Shown here: positions 52,670 through 64,000 of the stretch, in pieces
Position numbering within the stretch: position 1 is the first letter of the stretch
Layout: each line of letters starts with the position of its first letter
DNA from: Bowmanella denitrificans
GTDB lineage: Bacteria; Pseudomonadota; Gammaproteobacteria; Enterobacterales; Alteromonadaceae
NCBI RefSeq assembly: GCF_002887595.1
Contig: NZ_PEBU01000006.1
Location: 235,634-299,633, forward strand
Length of the DNA stretch: 64,000 bases
Direction: 5' to 3'
Made by a program: the position numbers and the translations under genes
The notes under the pieces: generated by a model
The model's input: only the letters and a program-made list of their open reading frames with translations
The model's database searches: none
Told to the model about the DNA's origin: nothing

Positions 52670-53269
52670 TCAGGCCATATATTCAGGCCCCAGACCCATT
52701 CCCCACAGAATGACCGAGCCCGCCATAATAATAACCAGCAATACCAGCCCGCAGGTCACCACCGAACTGGCATAAATAAAGCCCTTTTCTTCGGGGATCT
52801 GCATAATAATCGGCACGCCGGAATAGAGCAGATAAACAGAGTAAGTCAGCCCGGCCAGCCCAACCAGCATCACAAACCAAAGTACCGGATACAGCGCGGC
52901 AAAACCTACCATAAACAATGGTGTGGCAGTGTAGGCCGCCAGTTCCAGTGACTGGGTGAAGGATGGATTGGCATCAAAGGTCTTGGCCATCCAATGCACC
53001 AGATAGGCCAGGCCAAATACGCCAGCGACCAACGCCAGATACATGCCGATGCTCATCATCATGGCGCTTTGCTGAGTGAGCTTGATCACATCTCCCACCC
53101 CAATACTCCAGCCGAGATGAGCCGCAGCATAATAGCCGGTAATGGCCGGAATCAGGGCCACGATCAGTATATGGGTCATACTGTAGCTAAGGCTTTCATG
53201 CCTTTTTTCAATGGTTTGCCATTCTTCTTTGGGGTGAGCATAAAGACCCCACAGATGGTTCAGGATCAT
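52670..53269 (-). CDS. Yip1/DUF1282-family membrane protein
   Basis: 199 aa with a short cytoplasmic N-terminus (MILNHLWGLYAHPKEEWQTIE) and about five membrane segments. The start HLWGLYAHPKEEW and the pattern of Gly/Pro-containing helices match bacterial Yip1-domain proteins. No function is established for most bacterial members. Monocistronic and convergent with purF. Confidence 0.85.
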   Translation of the reverse strand: MILNHLWGLYAHPKEEWQTIEKRHESLSYSMTHILIVALIPAITGYYAAAHLGWSIGVGDVIKLTQQSAMMMSIGMYLALVAGVFGLAYLVHWMAKTFDANPSFTQSLELAAYTATPLFMVGFAALYPVLWFVMLVGLAGLTYSVYLLYSGVPIIMQIPEEKGFIYASSVVTCGLVLLVIIMAGSVILWGMGLGPEYMA

Positions 53270-53667
53270 AATCTACCTCACTTAGCGCATTGGCTTCTTA
53301 GTTGATGTTTCCCCACAGCTTTATACTGATGGAGTGTTTTTAACATTGTTTTAACATTAGTTTCATGGACCTTGCTTCGTTCGTCAATAGTTTATTTTAT
53401 CGACAATATAACCCTATGGTTTTACTGGTTTTTACTAACAGATTAGGGCCACTCTTTTTCTCTCTGAAAGGTTTTTCAGTGGTGCTCACATGAAGAGCAG
53501 GGCAACCTTTTAATGGGCAAACTACACAGGGGAAATAAGGTTATCTGCAGCAAGAATGTTGCCGATGACTAACAAGAGCGAACCTCGCATAGCCATGATA
53601 AAATCCCCTTATTTAGCTCTGAACGGGCCAGTGGCTGCTGTACAGATTAAAAGTCTGAGATTGTTGT
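53270..53667. other. Intergenic region upstream of miaE
   Basis: About 400 bp, AT-rich, containing a short direct repeat TTTTAACATT (53337 and 53348 vicinity). It should hold the two divergent promoters. No gene or strong structure is seen. Confidence 0.5.
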
Positions 53668-54420
53668 TTGAATACTTTACTTGCTCCCATTAAATCATTC
53701 CTGCATTGCGAGACACCGAAGCAATGGGTTGACGCCGCGATGAAACCGGTAAACCTCTCTGTGCTGCTTACCGATCACCTTATTTGCGAACTGAAGGCCG
53801 CCCAAAGTGCCATGTATTTGATTCGCAAATATGCGGTAGACGAGGAAAGTGGCGCTGCGCTGCTTAAATGGCTAAAGCCATATGAAGATTTTGCTTATCG
53901 TCAGATTGGTGATTGGCAAGCGTTGGCCGGGCATGACAAGCTGACTAAGGCAATGATACCCCGTTCGACTTCGCCTTATAGTCAAGATCTGATTAATAAA
54001 ATGGTGCTACTGATTAAAGAGGAGCTCCATCATTTCTATCAAGTGCTCGAGCTTATGCAAGTGTTTGGAGTGGCTTACGACAAGATTACCTCAAGCCGGT
54101 ATGCCAGAGGCTTACTCAGTCATGTCAGAACTCATGAGCCAGCGGCATTGGTTGATAAATTGATCTGCGGAGCTTACATAGAGGCTCGTTCATGCGAGCG
54201 TTTCGCAGCCATTGCACCTCATGTCGATAGCAGGCTGGGGGAATTCTATATTTCTTTGCTACGTTCTGAAGCACGCCACTATCAGGACTATTTGACGCTG
54301 GCCCAGGACTTTGCCCAAAACGATATCTCAGCGCGCGTTCAGCACTTTGGCAGCGTGGAAGCGGAGCTGATTTTATCGCCGGATAGTGATTTTAAGTTTC
54401 ACAGTGGCATGCCAACCTGA
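53668..54420 (+). CDS. miaE: tRNA-(ms2io6A37) hydroxylase
   Basis: 250 aa di-iron monooxygenase that hydroxylates the isopentenyl group of ms2i6A37 in tRNA. A ferritin-like helical bundle carries the iron-binding pairs: CELKAAQSA, KEELHHFYQV and SEARHYQDYL. TTG start. Typical of marine and enteric gammaproteobacteria able to make ms2io6A. Stands alone before the lanthipeptide cluster. Confidence 0.93.
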   Translation: MNTLLAPIKSFLHCETPKQWVDAAMKPVNLSVLLTDHLICELKAAQSAMYLIRKYAVDEESGAALLKWLKPYEDFAYRQIGDWQALAGHDKLTKAMIPRSTSPYSQDLINKMVLLIKEELHHFYQVLELMQVFGVAYDKITSSRYARGLLSHVRTHEPAALVDKLICGAYIEARSCERFAAIAPHVDSRLGEFYISLLRSEARHYQDYLTLAQDFAQNDISARVQHFGSVEAELILSPDSDFKFHSGMPT

Positions 54421-54721
54421 CCCTACCTGCAGGGTTTCAACTTCAAATTAGCTGATAGGCTCACTTGGCGGGCGGTGCTTACACAACCGGGGTAAGCATG
54501 CCAATCCTTGGCTTTGCTTTTGCCTGTTCGTCGGTAACATTTGTCAATTATTCTGAACAAGGTTTTTCGTCCGTATTCTGTTTGTTTTTTATTCTGGCTT
54601 GCTGAGTTCCTCCATGAATGTTAACAATATGTTGCTTCTAAAGCAGTTATCTTGAAATGGATAGATGGGGCATGGAGCTGCCATAAGGCAGCAATTCTGT
54701 TCAACGGAAAAGGAATAACAA
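54421..54721 (+). promoter_or_regulatory. Leader region of the lanthipeptide cluster
   Basis: 300 bp with no gene on the plus strand. It contains a hairpin GCTGCC-ATAA-GGCAGC (54677-54692) about 30 bp before the first precursor start, and AAAAGGAATAACA as ribosome site. The promoter must be here; no clear -35/-10 pair could be picked. Confidence 0.5.
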
Positions 54722-55114
54722 ATGAAATTGAAACTGAAGAAGAACACGTTGATGCAACTCTCTAACGACATGGAAGTTGTGCCGCAGAAACTAACGCACA
54801 ACATAGCTGGTGGTGCACCACCTTCCCGCTTTGATCTCTGTCTTACCACTATTCAGCCGCTGGCTGGCCGATGTGATCCTTTCACTGATTTTTGTACATC
54901 GGGTGCAACCTGTGGTTCGACTTGTGGTTCCACCTGTAGTTCCACTTGTGGCTCCACCTGCGGTTCCACTTGTGGCAGTACTTGTGGAGTAACGTGCGGG
55001 GCTACTTGTGGCGCTACATGTGACGGCTGTCAATCTTTACGGATTTGCCCGCCATCGCTTGAGCCCTATGGCAATAATGCAGTGCCAAACAGGCCACATA
55101 CCTGTTTCTGCTAA
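54722..55114 (+). CDS. Lanthipeptide precursor 1 with (Thr-Cys-x-x)n repeat core
   Basis: 130 aa. The leader MKLKLKKNTLMQLSNDMEVV...IAGG ends in a double glycine at residues 30-31, the expected cut site of the C39 exporter, leaving a 99-residue core. Residues 63-103 are a run of four-residue units, mostly TCGS, with ten Thr-Cys pairs and a final DGC. The core has 17 Cys in all. Thr/Ser would be dehydrated by LanB and joined to Cys by LanC, which could give a regular series of thioether rings. The tail CPPSLEPYGNNAVPNRPHTCFC is nearly identical in precursor 2. A strong terminator-like hairpin follows directly. Confidence 0.9.
   Translation: MKLKLKKNTLMQLSNDMEVVPQKLTHNIAGGAPPSRFDLCLTTIQPLAGRCDPFTDFCTSGATCGSTCGSTCSSTCGSTCGSTCGSTCGVTCGATCGATCDGCQSLRICPPSLEPYGNNAVPNRPHTCFC
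54908..55030 (+). repeat. 12-bp coding repeat inside precursor 1
   Basis: About ten tandem units of ACN-TGY-GGN-NNN encoding Thr-Cys-Gly-Ser and variants (S, V or A at position 4, one SS). Synonymous codons differ between units, so the repeat is kept at protein level and is not a fresh slippage product. Confidence 0.9.
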
Positions 55115-55123
55115 TAAAGATGA

Positions 55124-55149
55124 GACAAAGAAGCCGGGCTTCTTTGTCT
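55124..55149 (+). terminator. Attenuator/terminator after precursor 1
   Basis: Perfect palindrome GACAAAGAAGCC/GGCTTCTTTGTC plus T residues, 10 bp after the precursor stop. It probably lets precursor mRNA exceed that of the modification genes. Confidence 0.85.
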
Positions 55150-55259
55150 TTTCCTGATTTTCTGTGCCTGGCTGCTGCCAGGAGTTTTTTGAGCCGGGCA
55201 GCGATAACCAGGCTGTGTCGGCAACAGACAGAGAGTATAAAGGCCATAAGGAGAAGGCG

Positions 55260-56462
55260 ATGTCTGCACTTATCAGCTCTGAACAACAGCACCAACAATG
55301 TCTGCACATTCTCAGACAGATTACCGACAGAATTGACAGCGAGCTGCTCAGTGTCAGGAACTGGGGACTATGCGGTGGTGTAGCTGGCCTGATTTTATTT
55401 CTGGTGGAAATGGAAGCTAACTACCCAAATACCCTGGGTATGGATAAGATTGAAAGTCTGATTGATGCCCTGCAAAGCAATTGCGATTTGAAAACACTGC
55501 CACCGCGACTGGATATGGGGCTGTTAGGCATTGCCTGGTTACGTGAACACCTGCAACAACGCTTTGGTGATGACGATGACGTGAATGCCGATATTGACCA
55601 ACTGATACTCAATGCATTGTCGGTGGATACTTGGTCGGGAGAATATGAGCTACTGGCCGGATTAGCCGGTTTTGGCCTTTATGCCAGCAAGCGTTCCGGC
55701 TACGACAGCGGTAAGCGGATGATTGAGAAAGTGGTGCAGCACCTGCAGTCACTGATGGTGGAAACACCACAAGGGCTGGCGTGGCCAAGCGCCCCCACAT
55801 CGGCTTATCACTCAGACGGGAATAGCGAGCAAGTGGAGTTTAACCTGGGGCTGGCTCACGGTAATGCCTCTGTCTTAGGGTGTCTAACCCACATTTATCG
55901 CTGTCAACCCACGTTAGAACACGAGCGCCTGTTAAGGGGCAGCGCCGATTGGTTATTGGCACAGCGCAACCCTGCCGATACCGGCAGCTACTTTTCCTAC
56001 AACAATCGGCGGGTGATGCGTTCGCGCATTGGCTGGTGTTACGGCGATATTGGTAACGCCCTGGTGTTATGGCGTGCAGGTAAAGCCCTTGAAGATCAAC
56101 GTATTCAGAACGCCGCCAAAGACATTGCCGTCGCTTGCACAACCCGACGGGATTTTAAGTTGACCTCTTGTTATGACGCAGGTATTTGCCATGGCTCAGC
56201 GGGCAATATGCTGATTTTTCAGACACTGCATGATGAAATGCAACATCCGGCGTTATTGGACTACGCGCAATTCTGGCTACAGCAAACGTTCGACTATGCG
56301 CAAAAAGAACCCAATTTGGATGGTTTACGCCGCTTTGATGGTGAAGCCGACGAATATCAGGATTGCCCTGGGATGCTGGAAGGGCTAGCCGGGGTGGGAC
56401 TGTGTTTGTTGGCTGCAGTCGGTCATGACAGCAGTTGGAAAGAATCTTTGTTATTGGAGTAA
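55260..56462 (+). CDS. lanC: Lanthionine synthetase C-family cyclase
   Basis: 400 aa, catalysing Michael-type addition of Cys thiols to dehydrated Ser/Thr to form thioether rings. Zinc ligands are Cys260 (GWCYGDIGN), Cys310 and His311 (CHGSAGN); the general acid/base candidate His200 is in GLAHGNASVLG. The alpha-toroid repeats (GLCGGVAG, GLAGFGLY, GLAGVGLCLL) are visible. The ATG at 55260 is preceded by AAGGAGAAGGCG. LanB follows 4 bp after the stop, so both are made from one message. Confidence 0.93.
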   Translation: MSALISSEQQHQQCLHILRQITDRIDSELLSVRNWGLCGGVAGLILFLVEMEANYPNTLGMDKIESLIDALQSNCDLKTLPPRLDMGLLGIAWLREHLQQRFGDDDDVNADIDQLILNALSVDTWSGEYELLAGLAGFGLYASKRSGYDSGKRMIEKVVQHLQSLMVETPQGLAWPSAPTSAYHSDGNSEQVEFNLGLAHGNASVLGCLTHIYRCQPTLEHERLLRGSADWLLAQRNPADTGSYFSYNNRRVMRSRIGWCYGDIGNALVLWRAGKALEDQRIQNAAKDIAVACTTRRDFKLTSCYDAGICHGSAGNMLIFQTLHDEMQHPALLDYAQFWLQQTFDYAQKEPNLDGLRRFDGEADEYQDCPGMLEGLAGVGLCLLAAVGHDSSWKESLLLE

Positions 56463-56466
56463 CAGT

Positions 56467-59400
56467 ATGCAAACCCAAGGAGTGGCGGAGTTCTTTATTC
56501 TGAGAACCCCCAGGCTGGCTTTTAGTGAGCTGACGCAATGGCACAGCAGTGATAAGCGCCAACTGCGAGAAAAACTTAATGCCTGGCTACACCATCCTGA
56601 AACGCTGGAGGCGTTATATCTGGCCAGCCCATCGCTATTGCAACGCCTGCATCAGTGGCAGCAGGACCCAGACTCCAAACGTGGCCAGAAAATGGAGTTG
56701 GCATTAGCAAAGTATTTTATGCGCATGGCCGGACGTGCCACGCCTTTTGGATTATTTTCGGCTATTAGTCTGGGTAAAGTGGCAGAATCTGACCATTTAG
56801 CACTTAAAAGCAATGATGGTTTCAGCCGCAAGACACGCCTGGACAGTTCTTGTTTGCTGGCCCTTAAAGCCCGCTTGTGCGAGCAGGACTGGGTGGCCAA
56901 AGACATGCCATTGGTGACCAACGACAGCCTCTACAAAATGGGTGCTGAGTACCGTTATGTGGAAAGCTATTTTGTCAAAGAGCAAATTCATTACCGACTG
57001 ACATCTGCGGATATCAGCGAGCCTTTGCAGTTGATGGTGGAATCGGCCAGGGAGCCAGTGCGACGTCAGGTGTTGCTTGATAATCTGATGAGCCTGGATA
57101 CTGAAATCAGTTGCGCGGACGCCGAGACATTTGTTGCTGAACTGGTGGAGGCGCGCATCTTGCTGCCGGTGTTCAATCTTCCTATCAGCGGTGATGATAT
57201 GGGCAGGCAGTTTCAGCGCGAAGCGGCTGCTCTGGGATACCAGCAATTAAGTGCCGAGCTTGAGGCTATACTAAGCGAGCTGGATGGTCTGGATCAGCAA
57301 CAACACAACCCCCCCGAATCTTACCAGGCGCTGTATCAAAGGATGCAGGCCATGGCACTTTCGGCGGATGAGGCTAAGTCTTTTCAGGTGGATATGCTGC
57401 GTCATGCACCAGATCTGACCCTGAGTAAAGATAAAGCCGAACAGGTGCTGGTTGTGGCCAGACATCTGTCGCGCTTATTGCCGGCACCGGGCAACCCCTT
57501 CAGTGACATAATCAATAAAATCAATAATGAGTTTGTCGGCCGGATGATGCCGCTGAAAGCGTTTTTGGACGACGAGTCTGGCTGGTCCATGTCTTCTGAC
57601 ACCGGTTATGCCACCCCTTTATTAAAAGGACTCAACCTTGCCGCTGCGCAAGCTGGCATGGGCAATGCTGGTTTGTCTGCCCTGGACCGCTTATTACTGA
57701 AGAAGCTGATGGCCTGTGCAGATGAGAAAATTACTGAAATCAGTTTGACGGAGAAAGATATCGATCAGCATCAACTCAGTCAGACCAGCTATTTTGCCGA
57801 CAGTTTTGCCGCCAGCCTGGAACTGTATGGCGACAAGGCGGATACCATCAGATTAACCGGCTTTTATGGCCCTTCGGCTGCTAACCTGCTGGGGCGATTC
57901 TGCCATCTTAGCCCACAACTCACCGAATATACCCGTGATTTGCTCAAACAGGAGGAAGCGCAGCGCCCGGATGCTTTATTTGCAGAGATTATCCATCTGC
58001 CCAGTGGGCGCATGGGCAATGTGATTGCCAGACCTGTGCTGCGGGAATATGAAATCTGTTATCTGACCAGTGCCGGGGTGCCAGTGGAGAAGCAAATCGG
58101 TCTGGATGATCTTTATGTGTATGTTGAACAGGGTCTGGTGAGATTGTGGAGTCAATCCCACCAACGTGAAGTGATCCCGCGTCTGTCCAGCGCACACAAC
58201 ACCATGCATAACAGTCTGGGCTTGTATAAATTTCTGGCTGGTTTGCAAAAGCAGCAGGTGCAATACCCGTTTTTTAACTGGCCGGCACTGGCGAGGGAGC
58301 GGGACTATCTGCCCAGGGTGCGTTTTGGTAACGTGCTTTTATCGGTGCGCACCTGGTTTGTGCCAAGAGACAAGCTGACTGCCCTGGCAAAGCTATGCGG
58401 GGATGACTACAGCCAGGCCTGGAAAACGCTGCAGAGCCAACTGCAATTGCCGGATTGGCTGCTGTACAAGATATCGGATAATGCCCTGACCCTGACGCTG
58501 GCTAACCCAATTATGCTGGATGTGCTTTTAGGTGAAACCAAAGGACAATCGCTAGTCACATTGGAGGAACTGCCAGAGACAGAGTGGGGGACCGCTGCCA
58601 CCCTGGATGGGCAAAGCCTGCGCAGTGAAGTGCTGCTGCCGTTTTATCAGCAGAATGATGATGTTTTGGCGGTAGCCAGGCCGCAGCCACCACAGGAAAA
58701 TGTCAGTCGCGAATTTGTAGTCGGCAGCGAATGGTTGAGTATCAAATTCTATGGCGGCAATTCCACAGTCGAGAAGTACCTGCTTGAGGTACTCAGCCCG
58801 TTGTTATTTGCGGCAAAGCAGGGCGGCCTGATCGAAGGTTTTTTCTTTTTACGCTACGGCGATCCCGACTGGCATTTGCGTTTAAGACTGCATGGTGATG
58901 GCGCTAAGCTATTAGCTGAAATGGTGCCGATGATTTATCAGCACAGCGGCGACTATGTTGATAACGGGCCAATTAAACAGGTGGTTATCGACACCTATAA
59001 ACAGGAATTAGAGCGCTATGGTGGTAAGGATGCCATGCCCCTGGCCGAAAACCTGTTCTGTATCAATAGTGAAACGGCCCTGCGACTGCTTGATACGGCC
59101 TTAGCTGATATGGAAAGCTACCGCTGGCAAGCGGTATTGGCAGGGTGTCATAGTTTGCTTGAAGCATTTGCCTTAAGCAATGAGGACAAACTGGAACTGA
59201 TATCCCTGCTGCGTGAAGGCTACGGCAGAGAATTTGGCGACAGTCGCCATCTGCGTAAACAACTGGGGCAGAAATACCGGGATGTACAAGATCAGGTCAT
59301 CAACCTGCTCAACCGTCAGCAGATGGATGAGGTACAGACGCAGCTCTGGTCTATTCTTGAACTGCAAAGCCAGCCACTGCATGTGCTGGTGCAGGGCTAT

Positions 59401-59589
59401 CAGCAATTGGATAAAGAGGGCGCATTGCAAGGCGGTGTTAAGCGTGTTCTTGGCTCTTTTATGCACATGTTCTGTAATCGCATGTTTAAAGCCTATGGGC
59501 GGGAACAGGAGTTTGTGATCTACGACCTGTTGCGCCGCTATTATCAGTTTAAGTGCAACGCCGATACTGCTTCGAAGGATGGAAAATAA
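56467..59589 (+). CDS. lanB: Full-length class I lantibiotic dehydratase LanB
   Basis: 1040 aa from the ATG at 56467 (GGAGTAACAGT upstream). It activates Ser/Thr of the precursor by glutamylation from Glu-tRNA and eliminates glutamate to Dha/Dhb. N-terminal glutamylation domain: FILRTPRLAFSEL start, RMAGRATPFGLFSAISLG at about 94-111, VIARPVLREYEICY and LPRVRFGNVLLS in the later part. C-terminal SpaB_C elimination domain begins near residue 755 with WLSIKFYGGNSTVEKYL, then FFFLRYGDPDWHLRLRLHG. Both halves are in one chain, as in NisB, rather than split as in pinensin-type clusters. Confidence 0.95.
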   Translation: MQTQGVAEFFILRTPRLAFSELTQWHSSDKRQLREKLNAWLHHPETLEALYLASPSLLQRLHQWQQDPDSKRGQKMELALAKYFMRMAGRATPFGLFSAISLGKVAESDHLALKSNDGFSRKTRLDSSCLLALKARLCEQDWVAKDMPLVTNDSLYKMGAEYRYVESYFVKEQIHYRLTSADISEPLQLMVESAREPVRRQVLLDNLMSLDTEISCADAETFVAELVEARILLPVFNLPISGDDMGRQFQREAAALGYQQLSAELEAILSELDGLDQQQHNPPESYQALYQRMQAMALSADEAKSFQVDMLRHAPDLTLSKDKAEQVLVVARHLSRLLPAPGNPFSDIINKINNEFVGRMMPLKAFLDDESGWSMSSDTGYATPLLKGLNLAAAQAGMGNAGLSALDRLLLKKLMACADEKITEISLTEKDIDQHQLSQTSYFADSFAASLELYGDKADTIRLTGFYGPSAANLLGRFCHLSPQLTEYTRDLLKQEEAQRPDALFAEIIHLPSGRMGNVIARPVLREYEICYLTSAGVPVEKQIGLDDLYVYVEQGLVRLWSQSHQREVIPRLSSAHNTMHNSLGLYKFLAGLQKQQVQYPFFNWPALARERDYLPRVRFGNVLLSVRTWFVPRDKLTALAKLCGDDYSQAWKTLQSQLQLPDWLLYKISDNALTLTLANPIMLDVLLGETKGQSLVTLEELPETEWGTAATLDGQSLRSEVLLPFYQQNDDVLAVARPQPPQENVSREFVVGSEWLSIKFYGGNSTVEKYLLEVLSPLLFAAKQGGLIEGFFFLRYGDPDWHLRLRLHGDGAKLLAEMVPMIYQHSGDYVDNGPIKQVVIDTYKQELERYGGKDAMPLAENLFCINSETALRLLDTALADMESYRWQAVLAGCHSLLEAFALSNEDKLELISLLREGYGREFGDSRHLRKQLGQKYRDVQDQVINLLNRQQMDEVQTQLWSILELQSQPLHVLVQGYQQLDKEGALQGGVKRVLGSFMHMFCNRMFKAYGREQEFVIYDLLRRYYQFKCNADTASKDGK

Positions 59590-59596
59590 CTGCAGC

Positions 59597-60565
59597 ATGA
59601 AAAAACAACTTTTCCGCGAACAGGTTCTGGATGCCAAGAAAACCAGCATGTTTGGCAGAGTGGTCCTGACCCAGCCTCTGTCTGTAAGTGTAGGGTTGGC
59701 GTTGACGCTGGGGACACTGGTGGCTGTCCTGGCATTTTTGTGGTTGTTTCAGTATCAGCACAAAATGCAGGTTATCACGAAAATCGAGCCACAAAATCTG
59801 GTGAATATCCCGTATCAGGGGCCGCCAGTCATACTTAAGCAACATCTGGTCGCACCAGGTTCCAGAATTGAAGCGGGTAAAGCCGTGGCAAAAATAACCA
59901 CGGACAGTCCAGACACATTGGAGTCAGGGCAGGCAATAACAGATAGGCTTGCCTATCTGCAACGTACCTTGGTAAGCACCCAGCAACGCCAGCAACTACT
60001 TGCACAATATTTGGCAGAGCATCAGGGAAAACTTGGCGCGGACCAGCAATTGCAGCAGCAATTGCAGCTTATCGAAGCCCAGGACCAGACCAATCGCTTG
60101 AATTATGACATTGCTCAACTGCAAGCTGTACTGGACAAGCAACAAGGTTGGCAGACAGACGGTGATATGCTCAAAGCCCAGCACTACGGGGTGTTGCAGC
60201 AATGGTACGTAAAGGAAGGGCAGAACCTGAGGATGGGAGAACTTCTGTACCGGCTTGGCGATGCTGACGGAAAACTGCAGGCCTGGTTCCTGCTGCCAGC
60301 ATCCTGGTACGGTGATATTGAGCCAGGACAATCCGTACAAGTGCGTTTTGATGACTATCCATACCAGAAATTTGGCGTGCTGGATGCCACAGTGCAACAG
60401 GTGGGGAATCGGCAGGAAAGCGGTGGTTACGCCGCTATGGTGATGCTGCCGCGCCACTGGGCAGATAAAACCGGACAGCAGCAACCGCTGTTTGAGGGAA
60501 TGCAGGTCACCGCCGTGCTGCAGGGGCCAAGTCAATCACTGTTCAGTTGGTTGTTCAGAATTTAA
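59597..60565 (+). CDS. HlyD-type secretion adaptor
   Basis: 322 aa membrane-fusion protein. N-terminal cytoplasmic stretch, one membrane segment (SVGLALTLGTLVAVLAFLWLF, about 27-47), a periplasmic barrel with coiled coil (LAQYLAEHQGKLGADQQLQQQLQLIEAQ) and second barrel half. It would connect the ABC exporter to an outer-membrane channel such as TolC, needed for peptide export in a Gram-negative cell. Start at 59597, or at 59579 overlapping the lanB stop, cannot be decided. The 3' end overlaps the longer frame of the exporter gene. Confidence 0.9.
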   Translation: MKKQLFREQVLDAKKTSMFGRVVLTQPLSVSVGLALTLGTLVAVLAFLWLFQYQHKMQVITKIEPQNLVNIPYQGPPVILKQHLVAPGSRIEAGKAVAKITTDSPDTLESGQAITDRLAYLQRTLVSTQQRQQLLAQYLAEHQGKLGADQQLQQQLQLIEAQDQTNRLNYDIAQLQAVLDKQQGWQTDGDMLKAQHYGVLQQWYVKEGQNLRMGELLYRLGDADGKLQAWFLLPASWYGDIEPGQSVQVRFDDYPYQKFGVLDATVQQVGNRQESGGYAAMVMLPRHWADKTGQQQPLFEGMQVTAVLQGPSQSLFSWLFRI

Positions 60566-60579
60566 TTCAAGGGGCAAGG

Positions 60580-62763
60580 ATGGGTAATCCGGTTGATTTG
60601 TTGAATTTTCGCTTTTTCCGCCGCTCCGGCGCATTGCCGGTCATATTGCAATCTGAGGCCAGCGAGTGTGGATTGGCTGCACTGACCATGGTAGCCGGCT
60701 ACCATGGCTTTAAAACCGATCTTATCCAGATGCGTAATAGAGCGGCGTTGTCGTTGGATGGCATGGATATGATCCAACTGATTGAGCTGGCCGATACTAT
60801 TGGTCTGGGTGGCCGACCGATTCGCCTGGAAACCGCGGATCTGAAGGAATTCCGCCACCCGGCGATATTGCACTGGGATCTGGATCATTTTGTGGTATTG
60901 AAACGGGCCACTGACCGCTTTGTGGAGATCCATGATCCAGGCACAGGGTACCGCCGCATGTCACTGGAAGAAGCGTCCCGGCATTTTACCGGGGTGGCCC
61001 TTGAGCTTTATCCAACAGCCGAATTTACCCGGCGCGACGAAGTGCAAAGCATGACCTTCTTTGATTTCTGGCGCAGCATCCGTGGTCTGAAAGGTTGGTT
61101 GTTTAAGTTGTTACTGCTGTCAGTGGTATTACAGGTATTCTCTCTGGCCAGTCCTTATTACATGAAACTGGTAGTGGACGAAGTGCTGACTACCAACAAT
61201 GAAACCTTGCTGGTGGCCTTGGCGGTGGGGTTTGGTATGTTGATGCTGATCAGCACCCTGATTCAGAGTTTTCGCTCCTATGTGACCATGCATTTTGGCA
61301 ATCAGCTCAGTATTCAGATTGGTTCCAATCTTTTCCGGCATCTGATTCGTCTGCCTATGGCGTTTTACGAAAAACGCCATATTGGCGACGTGGTATCGCG
61401 ATTTGGTGCCAATGAGCAGATTAAAGGTCTGCTCACCACGGGCTTAATTGAGACCCTGCTGGATGGGGTGATGGCCATTACCACCGGGGTGATGATATTT
61501 CTGATCAGCCCAACCCTGGCCTGGGTGGTTGTGGGGTTTCTGCTCGGCTCGTTATTGCTGCAACTGCTATTCTACCGGCCTGTCCGACGTTTGTCGGAAG
61601 AGGCAATCGTGGCTGGCGCCAGTCAGTCATCAAATTTTATGGAGACGGTAAGGGGCATACAAAGTATTAAGCTGTTTGCCCGTGAGCAGCAGCGCCATAT
61701 TCTGTGGCAGAACCGCTATGCCGATACGCTGAATGCGGGAATTAAGCTAGGCAATCTGAACATTCTGCAGGGCATTTGCCAGTCGGTTTTAATGGGGCTG
61801 GAGAACATTCTGGTGATTTTCCTGGCCATAAAATTCATCATGACCGACGTGCTGAGTCTTGGGATCCTGTTCGCTTTTCTGGCGTATAAAGGCCAGTTTA
61901 GTGGCAACATCAATGCCCTAATCAGCCGCTATATTCAGTTTAAAATGCTGGGGCTACACCTGGAGCGGCTGTCGGACATTACCCTGAATAAAAAGGAAGA
62001 GCATCTGACCGTCAGTACCCCGGTAAAACCTAAAAGCTTTGATTTTAAAATTGAAAACGCCAGTTTTCGTTATTCGGACCGTGGTCGGCTGGTGCTGGAC
62101 GAACTTGATCTGCATATCAAACAGGGGGAATGTGTGGCCATTGTCGGGCCATCTGGTTGTGGAAAATCGACCTTGATGAAAGTCATGCTCGGATTGGCTC
62201 ATCCGCATCAGGGGCAAGTGGTTATGGGAGACGTGGATATTCGCGATATGGGTCTGTCCGAGTACCGAAAATGTGTGGCAGCGGTGATGCAAAACGATCA
62301 GCTATTATCCGGTACGATTGCCGAGAATATTTCCTTTTTTGATACCCAGGCGGATATGGAAAAAATTATCCGCTGTGCGTATAACGCCTGTATTCATGAG
62401 GATATCGAGGCGATGCCGCTAAAGTACAATTCGCTGATAGGCGACATGGGCTCGTCGTTATCCGGTGGTCAGAAACAACGTATCCTGCTGGCCAGAGCAT
62501 TGTACAAATCCCCCTATATTTTATTTATGGATGAAGCCACCAGTCATCTGGATGTGATGTTAGAAAAGAGTATCAATCAGGTATTAAAGCAATTTAACTG
62601 TACAAGGGTGATTATTTCTCACCGCCCGCAGACCATCGAAATGGCCGACAGAGTGCTGATGCTTAAGGATGGCAAGTTAAAAGAGCTGGATAAGAATGAC
62701 GCGGAATACCGCCGTTGTGTGGACAAGCCGGATGCTGTACCACTGTTTTCCGCTTCAAGGTAA
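60580..62763 (+). CDS. lanT: C39 peptidase-containing ABC exporter
   Basis: 727 aa bifunctional transporter that cuts double-glycine leaders and exports the peptide. The N-terminal C39 peptidase has Gln24, Cys30 (LQSEASECGLAALTMVAGYHG), His103 (HWDLDHFVVL) and Asp119 (IHDPGTGYRRM), a complete active site. Six membrane segments lie at about 165-430. The ATPase has GPSGCGKST, LSGGQKQRILLARAL and LFMDEATSHLD. Start at 60580 supported by AAGGGGCAAGG. Its cleavage rule fits the IAGG leader ends of both precursors. Confidence 0.96.
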   Translation: MGNPVDLLNFRFFRRSGALPVILQSEASECGLAALTMVAGYHGFKTDLIQMRNRAALSLDGMDMIQLIELADTIGLGGRPIRLETADLKEFRHPAILHWDLDHFVVLKRATDRFVEIHDPGTGYRRMSLEEASRHFTGVALELYPTAEFTRRDEVQSMTFFDFWRSIRGLKGWLFKLLLLSVVLQVFSLASPYYMKLVVDEVLTTNNETLLVALAVGFGMLMLISTLIQSFRSYVTMHFGNQLSIQIGSNLFRHLIRLPMAFYEKRHIGDVVSRFGANEQIKGLLTTGLIETLLDGVMAITTGVMIFLISPTLAWVVVGFLLGSLLLQLLFYRPVRRLSEEAIVAGASQSSNFMETVRGIQSIKLFAREQQRHILWQNRYADTLNAGIKLGNLNILQGICQSVLMGLENILVIFLAIKFIMTDVLSLGILFAFLAYKGQFSGNINALISRYIQFKMLGLHLERLSDITLNKKEEHLTVSTPVKPKSFDFKIENASFRYSDRGRLVLDELDLHIKQGECVAIVGPSGCGKSTLMKVMLGLAHPHQGQVVMGDVDIRDMGLSEYRKCVAAVMQNDQLLSGTIAENISFFDTQADMEKIIRCAYNACIHEDIEAMPLKYNSLIGDMGSSLSGGQKQRILLARALYKSPYILFMDEATSHLDVMLEKSINQVLKQFNCTRVIISHRPQTIEMADRVLMLKDGKLKELDKNDAEYRRCVDKPDAVPLFSASR

Positions 62764-62818
62764 GGACGCCTGCTAGCGGGGCCAAGCCCCATCATTTGAC
62801 CAGGAAAAGGATGAACCG

Positions 62819-63097
62819 ATGAAACTGAAACTCAAGAAACTGACCCTGATGCAGCTTTCCAATGATATGGAAGTGGTGCCACAAGCCCTGACCCGCGATA
62901 TCGCTGGCGGACAAAAGGCCATGTCACACCATACCGGCTGTGGTATGTGTGAAGAAACCTCAAGGTATTGCGTGAGCAAAGAGAGAACCTGTTTGCTCAC
63001 TCGCCTTGATTGTGAGCCGACTTTCCAATGTCCTCCGTCAATTGAGCCGTTGGGCAATAATGCAGTGCCCAACCGGCCACACACTTGTTATTGCTAA
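62819..63097 (+). CDS. Lanthipeptide precursor 2
   Basis: 92 aa. The leader differs from precursor 1 at only a few positions (MKLKLKKLTLMQLSNDMEVV...IAGG) with double glycine at 30-31, giving a 61-residue core. The core starts QKAMSHHTGCGMCEETSRYC, has 8 Cys and no TCGS repeat, and ends in the shared tail CPPSIEPLGNNAVPNRPHTCYC. The ATG has AGGAAAAGG upstream. It probably uses the same LanB, LanC and exporter and may be the partner of a two-component peptide or an independent product. Confidence 0.9.
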   Translation: MKLKLKKLTLMQLSNDMEVVPQALTRDIAGGQKAMSHHTGCGMCEETSRYCVSKERTCLLTRLDCEPTFQCPPSIEPLGNNAVPNRPHTCYC

Positions 63098-63109
63098 AAT
63101 ACAAAGATG

Positions 63110-63134
63110 AAAGGGAAGGGCTAGCCTTCCCTTT
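63110..63134 (+). terminator. Terminator of the lanthipeptide operon
   Basis: AAAGGGAAGG-loop-CCTTCCCTTT followed by GTTGTT; it also lies 5 bp from the end of the convergent gene. Confidence 0.85.
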
Positions 63135-63139
63135 GTTGT

Positions 63140-64000
63140 TTATGGTTTTATCAGAGCCAGCTCGGCGTCTCTGTCCAGTATCACCCACCAGCGCTTACCG
63201 TGATCTTTATCCCAACCTACCAGCGCTTGTCCGGCACATTGCTCGGGCCTGTCTGGCGCTTGTGTCAGCCAGTCTTCATTCCAGGCCATATCCACCACAC
63301 AATCGGCCTGAGTTATGGCCTGCCAGCCATCATTCTGCCTGATGGCCAGTAACAGTCCATCAACGTCCAGCGCATCTGGTGCGGTAAATTGCACTGCGTA
63401 ACGGTCGGCTTTGGCATCAGTGATATCCCATTTGGCACTGGCAGTCAGAGGCAAAGGCATCGGACCTTTGCTGCCGCCATCGGTTTGTGACATTGGCAGG
63501 CCGTTACCTTGACTGTCTTTAGGTTCACCATAGGCACCCTGATATATCCCCGTCTGGTTCTGGGTACCACTGATAATCAGGATATCCGACGCGGTGTCAC
63601 TTTCGCCGGCTAACCAGCTCAAAGTGACATGCTCTTTCAGATCGATACTGGTTTCGGGGATCAGCAGTTCGTTGGCTTCGGTATCCGGCACCACTCTTAG
63701 CGGGCTGTTCAAATTGGGAGTCCAGTTTTCGTGGGGGATAAACAGCCACTGATAGGCCAGCCGGGTCAGATCCATCAGGCTCTCTGCGCGGCTGATACCA
63801 GGAGTGAAAGACAGATCGCGGGTACGGGTATCGGTACGGTTAAAAGTATCGTTGCGTCCGCCCACCAGACGTGCAAAAGAGCCGTCATCGCCATAGCAAT
63901 CATTGGTCAGATACTGGGTCTGGAATACCAGTACGGGGCGGGTGTCATGCAAAATGGAGTTAGGATATATCATGGTTTCGCAGCGGTTGGTGGTGCGGGA
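63140..64000 (-). CDS. Unidentified protein, C-terminal part (runs off the window)
   Basis: At least 286 residues; the frame is open to the window edge with no stop before the apparent Met at 63973, so the true start is probably outside. The visible part is strand-rich and acidic with many Asp/Thr/Trp (TFNRTDTRTRDLSFTPG, HVTLSWLAGESDTASDILIISGTQNQTGIYQG), has a few cysteines and no membrane segment. It looks like a secreted or surface protein, but I recognise no family. Convergent with the lanthipeptide operon and probably unrelated to it. Confidence 0.7.
   Translation of the reverse strand, partial: SRTTNRCETMIYPNSILHDTRPVLVFQTQYLTNDCYGDDGSFARLVGGRNDTFNRTDTRTRDLSFTPGISRAESLMDLTRLAYQWLFIPHENWTPNLNSPLRVVPDTEANELLIPETSIDLKEHVTLSWLAGESDTASDILIISGTQNQTGIYQGAYGEPKDSQGNGLPMSQTDGGSKGPMPLPLTASAKWDITDAKADRYAVQFTAPDALDVDGLLLAIRQNDGWQAITQADCVVDMAWNEDWLTQAPDRPEQCAGQALVGWDKDHGKRWWVILDRDAELALIKP

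Follow-up and report, generated by a model that had tools for sequence, protein, structure and literature searches.

Can an ordinary set of lanthipeptide enzymes act on a core in which one Thr-Cys unit recurs over and over, and which rings would such a core carry? This question is raised by a stretch of 64,000 nucleotides of Bowmanella denitrificans (the window, by which the whole of that stretch is meant). On its plus strand, which carries all the coding features described here, a peptide of 130 residues with an ATG start and 17 Cys (precursor 1, LanA1; 54722..55114) was recognized from the ORF and its Cys count. Its first 31 residues (54722..54814) form a leader that ends in Gly-Gly and fits the published motif LxLxKx5L, and cleavage after the Gly-Gly would leave a core of 99 residues (54815..55111). 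The core contains a ladder of ten Thr-Cys pairs at four-residue spacing (54908..55021), as seen from the ORF translation, the alignment of the units and shuffling. The TC dipeptides stand at residues 63, 67, 71 and so on up to 99 of ORF 54722-55114, and the fixed four-residue register of ten units that an earlier note had described is indeed present in the translation. The span given there, 54908-55030, is right at its start, where the ladder codons begin, but the ladder ends at 55021, since 55030 includes the next Cys (C103). Of the proposed unit Thr-Cys-Gly-Ser the first half is invariant in all ten units, but Gly and Ser vary and the exact motif occurs in five, the others being TCSS (one), TCGV (one), TCGA (two) and TCDG (one). 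Ser is present in six of the ten. The longest in-register TC run comprises ten pairs; when the 99-residue core was shuffled 200,000 times, no run exceeded four.

When all 45 pairs of ladder units were compared, codon differences were found in 38 of 180 cases at position 1, 17 of 180 at position 2 and 115 of 180 at position 3, and the Thr and Cys codons did not differ at positions 1 and 2 in any unit. The excess at third positions indicates that the repeat is kept at the protein level, in agreement with what had been supposed from its varied synonymous codons. The same bias, together with a leader and a tail common to a second precursor, is the reason why the frame of ORF 54722-55114 is taken to be coding. 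The core of precursor 1 appears to be an amplified one, and part of the ladder may have spread through 24-base duplication.

Precursor 1 heads a class I set in which genes for LanC, LanB, an HlyD-type adaptor, a C39-ABC exporter and precursor 2 follow on the same strand. The LanC cyclase (55260..56462) matches PF05147 (E 1.3e-44), and its WCYG and CHG motifs, which hold the zinc ligands of LanC, align with those of solved LanC-like proteins. The LanB dehydratase (56467..59589) is full-length, with Lant_dehydr_N and Lant_dehydr_C in Pfam (PF04738, E 3.5e-119; PF14028, E 3.9e-62), and aligns to NisB and 9g04; it has both the N-terminal and the C-terminal (elimination) dehydratase domain. The HlyD-type adaptor (59597..60565) was identified by PF13437, and the exporter (60577..62763) by PF03412, PF00664 and PF00005 and by its alignment to 4ry2. 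Precursor 1 thus adjoins the enzymes on the same strand and has a core rich in Ser, Thr and Cys, and among the nine Pfam-scanned proteins, all six of the cluster included, neither a radical SAM enzyme, as would be expected for a sactipeptide or ranthipeptide, nor a metal-specific gene was found. Precursor 1 is very likely, on these sequence features, a class I lanthipeptide precursor. Dehydration of Ser or Thr followed by cyclisation with Cys, which had been suggested for the ladder, is well supported by the complete cluster and the leader class, but small rings, if taken to lie within a unit, are not. The machinery is ordinary and the substrate is extraordinary.

Precursor 2 (LanA2; 62819..63097) is an ORF of 92 residues with eight Cys, and it has a similar leader and tail without the ladder. 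The LxLxKx5L motif is present in both precursors (L3, L5, K7, L13). Their leaders agree at 66 of 93 bases, and 19 of the 27 differences are at third positions. The tail of precursor 1, from C109 on (55046..55111), shares 19 of 22 residues with that of precursor 2 (63029-63094), and 55 of 72 bases including the stop are alike. The middles of the two precursors differ despite these similar leaders and tails. A published rule of ring formation puts the same pair of bridges in both tails, Ser to Cys at +16 and Thr to Cys at +3. Neither precursor matches Pfam (E<=0.01) or NCBIfam (E<=0.1).

Class I LanA peptides with an LxLxKx5L leader and a Gly-Gly end have been described from Bacteroidetes by Walker et al. 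2020 (PMC7268733). The present precursors resemble that class, as it is set out there, in the leader motif, in the Gly-Gly end and in having a C39 protease in the cluster, all of which mark the corresponding subgroup. Unlike that class, the LanBs nearest to ours, i.e. the best 80 of 541 relatives, are mostly gammaproteobacterial, and the core here is a ladder. The survey covered precursors of 30-120 residues, so that precursor 1 with its 130 residues lies outside its range (PMC7268733). PciA of Pseudoalteromonas citrea, a class I precursor modified in E. coli and giving glutathione adducts, has the class I system in common with LanA1; the passages describing PciA, on which this comparison is based, make no mention of a ladder (PMC9993889). 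The view that no lanthipeptide with such a core has been described holds among the matches listed and in full-text literature searches, which included the letters of the ladder. Class I lanthipeptides of Pedobacter lusitanus, reportedly treated by Bothwell in 2021, probably belong to the same leader class as precursor 1.

A search for homologues of the repeat core yielded relatives of the leader type but no second ladder in the family, class and phylum genomes, LanB loci, viral contigs and plasmids searched, and the ladder was seen in one genome only among them. Precursor 1 found matches in 34 of 295 family genomes (E<=0.01), and none of the 29 non-own loci retrieved had a ladder in its main ORF. 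As ladder relatives these matches were set aside, being of the leader type, overlapped by longer ORFs, or weak (one, L015, lies in a long unrelated ORF). When the ladder itself was the query, the class search matched 4/369 genomes, one being the own genome and the other three giving readings that a longer ORF overlaps, and the phylum search (4/299 genomes) had the same outcome. Ten viral loci were rejected, each reading being overlapped by a longer ORF with repeats of Pro/Ala or EPQV type. Plasmids gave no ladder match (BLAST with the low-complexity filter on). No (TCxx)4 ladder was found in any frame in the LanB loci, which stand for the best 80 of 541 relatives; of the 44 genomes behind these loci three had leader-type matches and none had a ladder. 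The genome sets of these searches overlap in part. Of 302 loci the ten of the own genome were left out of a final scan; among the other 292, 16 readings resembled a ladder, and every one of them is overlapped by a longer ORF in a different frame. At L278-L287, L166, L167 and L292-L294, coding repeats that are Pro/Ala-rich or of EPQV/TPQP type mimic TCGS ladders in other frames, which is a trap for such searches.

With the leader profile, precursors turned up in 26 of 295 family genomes, the own one among them, and from 277 loci 156 unique precursors and 145 unique cores were collected. More than one consecutive Thr-Cys pair in four-residue register occurs in precursor 1 only among these 145 cores, and its 17 Cys stand against at most eight in the other 144. 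Of 28 chosen genomes, the own one among them, 18 had LanB matches, the near-full-length ones being 36-40% identical, and so had eight of 49 family genomes; the scan of named genomes for LanB, run on a collection of 84,980 species, may lack entries for the window's own genome or for a near one. Even the best 80 of 541 LanB relatives stay at or below 38% identity in their best segment.

These sibling cores can indicate which Ser/Thr-Cys distances are used in the family. Of the 145 unique cores, seven whose leader scored E>=1e-6 were discarded, the own cluster's two were kept separate, and the remaining 136 were reduced to 63 representatives below 40% identity; the set is non-random, since it consists of the leader-profile matches listed plus ORFs from other loci, with one genome (G095) mostly omitted as near-identical to another (G061). 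In the 63 siblings Thr precedes Cys at +3 in 41 cases, where shuffles average 20.6, and at +5 in 38 against 19.1. For Ser the corresponding numbers are 29 against 13.4 at +3 and 21 against 12.9 at +4, the latter a weak enrichment. One-to-one upstream Ser/Thr partners at +3 to +6 were available for 176 of 205 sibling Cys, compared with 92.8 (sd 6.3) in shuffles, none of 200 of which reached this value, although shuffling of whole cores removes any bias of Cys to the C-terminal side and the forward pairing could be inflated by this. The reverse pairing over the same distances covers 92 of 205 against 92.7. In precursor 1 an upstream partner exists at +5 for 11 of 17 Cys (0/1000 shuffles) and at +3 to +6 for 15 of 17 (10/1000), and in precursor 2 at +3 to +6 for seven of eight (3/1000).

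The ladder by its construction excludes +3 and offers +5 throughout, and as the siblings peak at +3 and +5, crossing rings that join each Thr with the Cys one unit further on are predicted. The Thr register begins one unit ahead of the Cys register with T59 (54896..54898), a possible start of the ring chain, and after the last ladder Thr (T99) comes C103 (55028..55030) at +4, its possible partner; this is what would be expected if each Thr reaches one unit forward. The forward +5 linkage, Thr(n) to Cys(n+1), is on balance probably the main one in the ladder. Closure of the whole run without a break is a more doubtful matter, and its chance is lower than that of +5 as the main linkage. Just as tentatively, the mature peptide may be pictured with some ten methyllanthionine rings in uninterrupted succession, each crossing the next and stapling unit to unit, i.e. 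a genetically encoded thioether-stapled rod made by standard LanB and LanC. Its bridges would then number over twice the seven given as the highest known (PMC11251773).

The published rule, which gives the correct pattern for 92 of 100 known peptides (PMC11251773), assigns all 17 Cys of precursor 1 when coded here, with 17 bridges and 10 crossings, though overlaps may be counted slightly differently in that paper. Within the ladder it places eight +5 bridges, and S60-C64 and S73-C76 replace two more. The same code gives eight bridges for precursor 2 and at most seven bridges and two crossings in the 136 sibling cores. In a crude backbone model, which assumes trans peptide bonds and one stereochemistry and speaks for feasibility only, the +5 chain closed as a regular helix from 12 of 34 starts, and in its four best solutions each unit rose by 3.6-5.0 angstroms. 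A regular rod shape for the +5 chain is sterically possible in terms of this model.

From the gene content and the spacing we infer both the modification of the ladder core and its ring pattern. If LanA1 follows the established class I route, LanB would dehydrate Thr and Ser of LanA1 via glutamyl-tRNA and LanC would add Cys to the dehydro residues. Each ladder Thr would then bridge the Cys of the next unit at +5, neighbouring rings would cross, and the product would have a stapled segment between its N-terminal part and the tail that resembles precursor 2. The C39 exporter would cut after Gly-Gly and export the product together with HlyD. The role can be guessed at: the secreted peptide might work by itself or jointly with precursor 2, possibly to harm competitors. 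The cluster does have two precursors, as a two-peptide lantibiotic would need.

Other arrangements of the rings have to be weighed against the forward +5 chain. Each Cys might instead be joined to the Thr of the following unit (C-G-x-T, +3), which would give nine separate small rings in a row. In the crude model such rings of four residues closed readily (27/41 starts), and a reverse partner at +3 to +6 is available for 14 of 17 Cys in precursor 1 (30/1000 shuffles) and for six of eight in precursor 2 (34/1000). The first of these figures is built into the repeat, as is the +1 pairing, which is as regular as +5 (11/17 Cys, 1/1000 shuffles). Since precursor 1 alone permits fairly full reverse pairing, the direction of the rings rests mainly on the siblings, and in them C followed by T at +3 is about as frequent as chance would have it (25 against 21.0). 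Another reverse spacing, C followed by S at +2, is commoner than in shuffles (24 against 13.9; 8/1000 shuffles), which counts against the forward reading. So do the choice of S60-C64 and S73-C76 by the published rule, the occurrence of the ladder in a single genome and the distance of LanB from its near-full-length relatives (36-40% identity). Rings at reverse +3 would leave out T59, T63, C100 and C103, and we regard them as unlikely. Small rings within a unit could come from neighbouring Thr and Cys (+1) or from Ser-x-Cys (+2), and both spacings are present in the ladder by construction, a Ser or Thr being found at +1 for 11 of 17 Cys. The comparison speaks against them: Ser is missing from four units, the siblings show Thr at +1 at chance (21 against 21.9) and at +2 depleted (12 against 21.4), with Ser at +2 in 10 cases against 13.9, and no model start closed for +1 (0/27) or for Ser +2 (0/35), on trans peptide bonds and one stereochemistry. 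Rings of this kind are thus very improbable.

It could also be that the enzymes cyclise the flanks and the tail and leave most of the ladder Cys free or in disulfides, perhaps for binding metal. The 17 Cys are far above the number in any of the other 144 unique cores, and it has been considered that synthesis may limit the number of overlaps (PMC11251773). On the other side, the ten units keep Thr just as strictly as Cys, and free thiols alone would not need Thr; nor was a metal-specific gene seen in the nine proteins scanned. Partial modification of this kind is held to be rather unlikely. That the ladder is an artefact of repeat expansion, without function in the product, would fit its occurrence in a single genome and the 24-base period (2.9 copies, 88% match) within ladder units 1-6, which suggests duplication there. 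Against this, the predominance of third-position over second-position differences speaks for a lasting constraint on the protein, and the leader and the tail are intact, so such an origin is hardly to be expected.

If LanB and LanC do process the ladder core, class I enzymes would be capable of making a long periodic thioether chain, and the ladder, if its predicted rings are true, would be a template for genetically encoded stapled rods with a length set by the number of repeats. The +3/+5 pattern of the siblings makes this a checkable prediction. In nisin, rings D and E are crossing methyllanthionine rings that form a single crossing pair, whereas a periodic chain is predicted for precursor 1. 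The known maximum of bridges is given as seven, with eight predicted and up to five overlaps (PMC11251773). The same paper cites geobacillin I and elgicin with seven bridges, overlapping in geobacillin I, a predicted peptide of Tannerella forsythia with tandem-duplicated modules and eight predicted bridges, and myxococin with five overlapping bridges; the prediction for precursor 1 is 17 bridges and 10 crossings. Whether function limits the number of bridges and synthesis the number of overlaps is left open there, and the ladder substrate would be a direct test of the two limits (PMC11251773).

The cluster occupies positions 54418-63142 of the window, between the match to miaE and that of the next gene. 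In two of four congeners (G062 and G096) these two matches are separated by 53-56 bases, compared with 8,725 in the window genome, and the short interval implies that the cluster was gained in the window genome, or lost in these congeners, as one block. The other two gave no match to the downstream gene at E<=1e-10, and none of the four congeners had a LanB match at E<=1e-20. No Rfam family reached the gathering threshold in 53000-64000, and a scan of two stretches showed no promoter-like site. A stem-loop of 12 pairs between precursor 1 and lanC (55123..55149) is the strongest of the terminator-like ones after precursor 1, and the scan marks it as terminator-like on the minus strand only. One of six pairs (55167..55182) is terminator-like on the plus strand, and the scan covering it gave five such sites on both strands against 1.1 expected from shuffles. 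Another terminator-like stem-loop follows precursor 2 on the plus strand (63110..63134), where the scan lists both strands.

Two further observations concern the relatives. One weak leader match (ORF L060_1_278 of locus L060, E 8e-3) has a core of NTDTVTQ repeated four times, without Cys. Nine genomes (G061, G095, G242, G124, G146, G266, G013, G018 and G230) have one LanB match each (E<=1e-20) and from 9 to at least 27 scattered leader-matching precursor genes, counts that may be low as at most 27 candidates were scored in each. With one LanB and many precursors, this arrangement looks like the prochlorosin system in a class I form.
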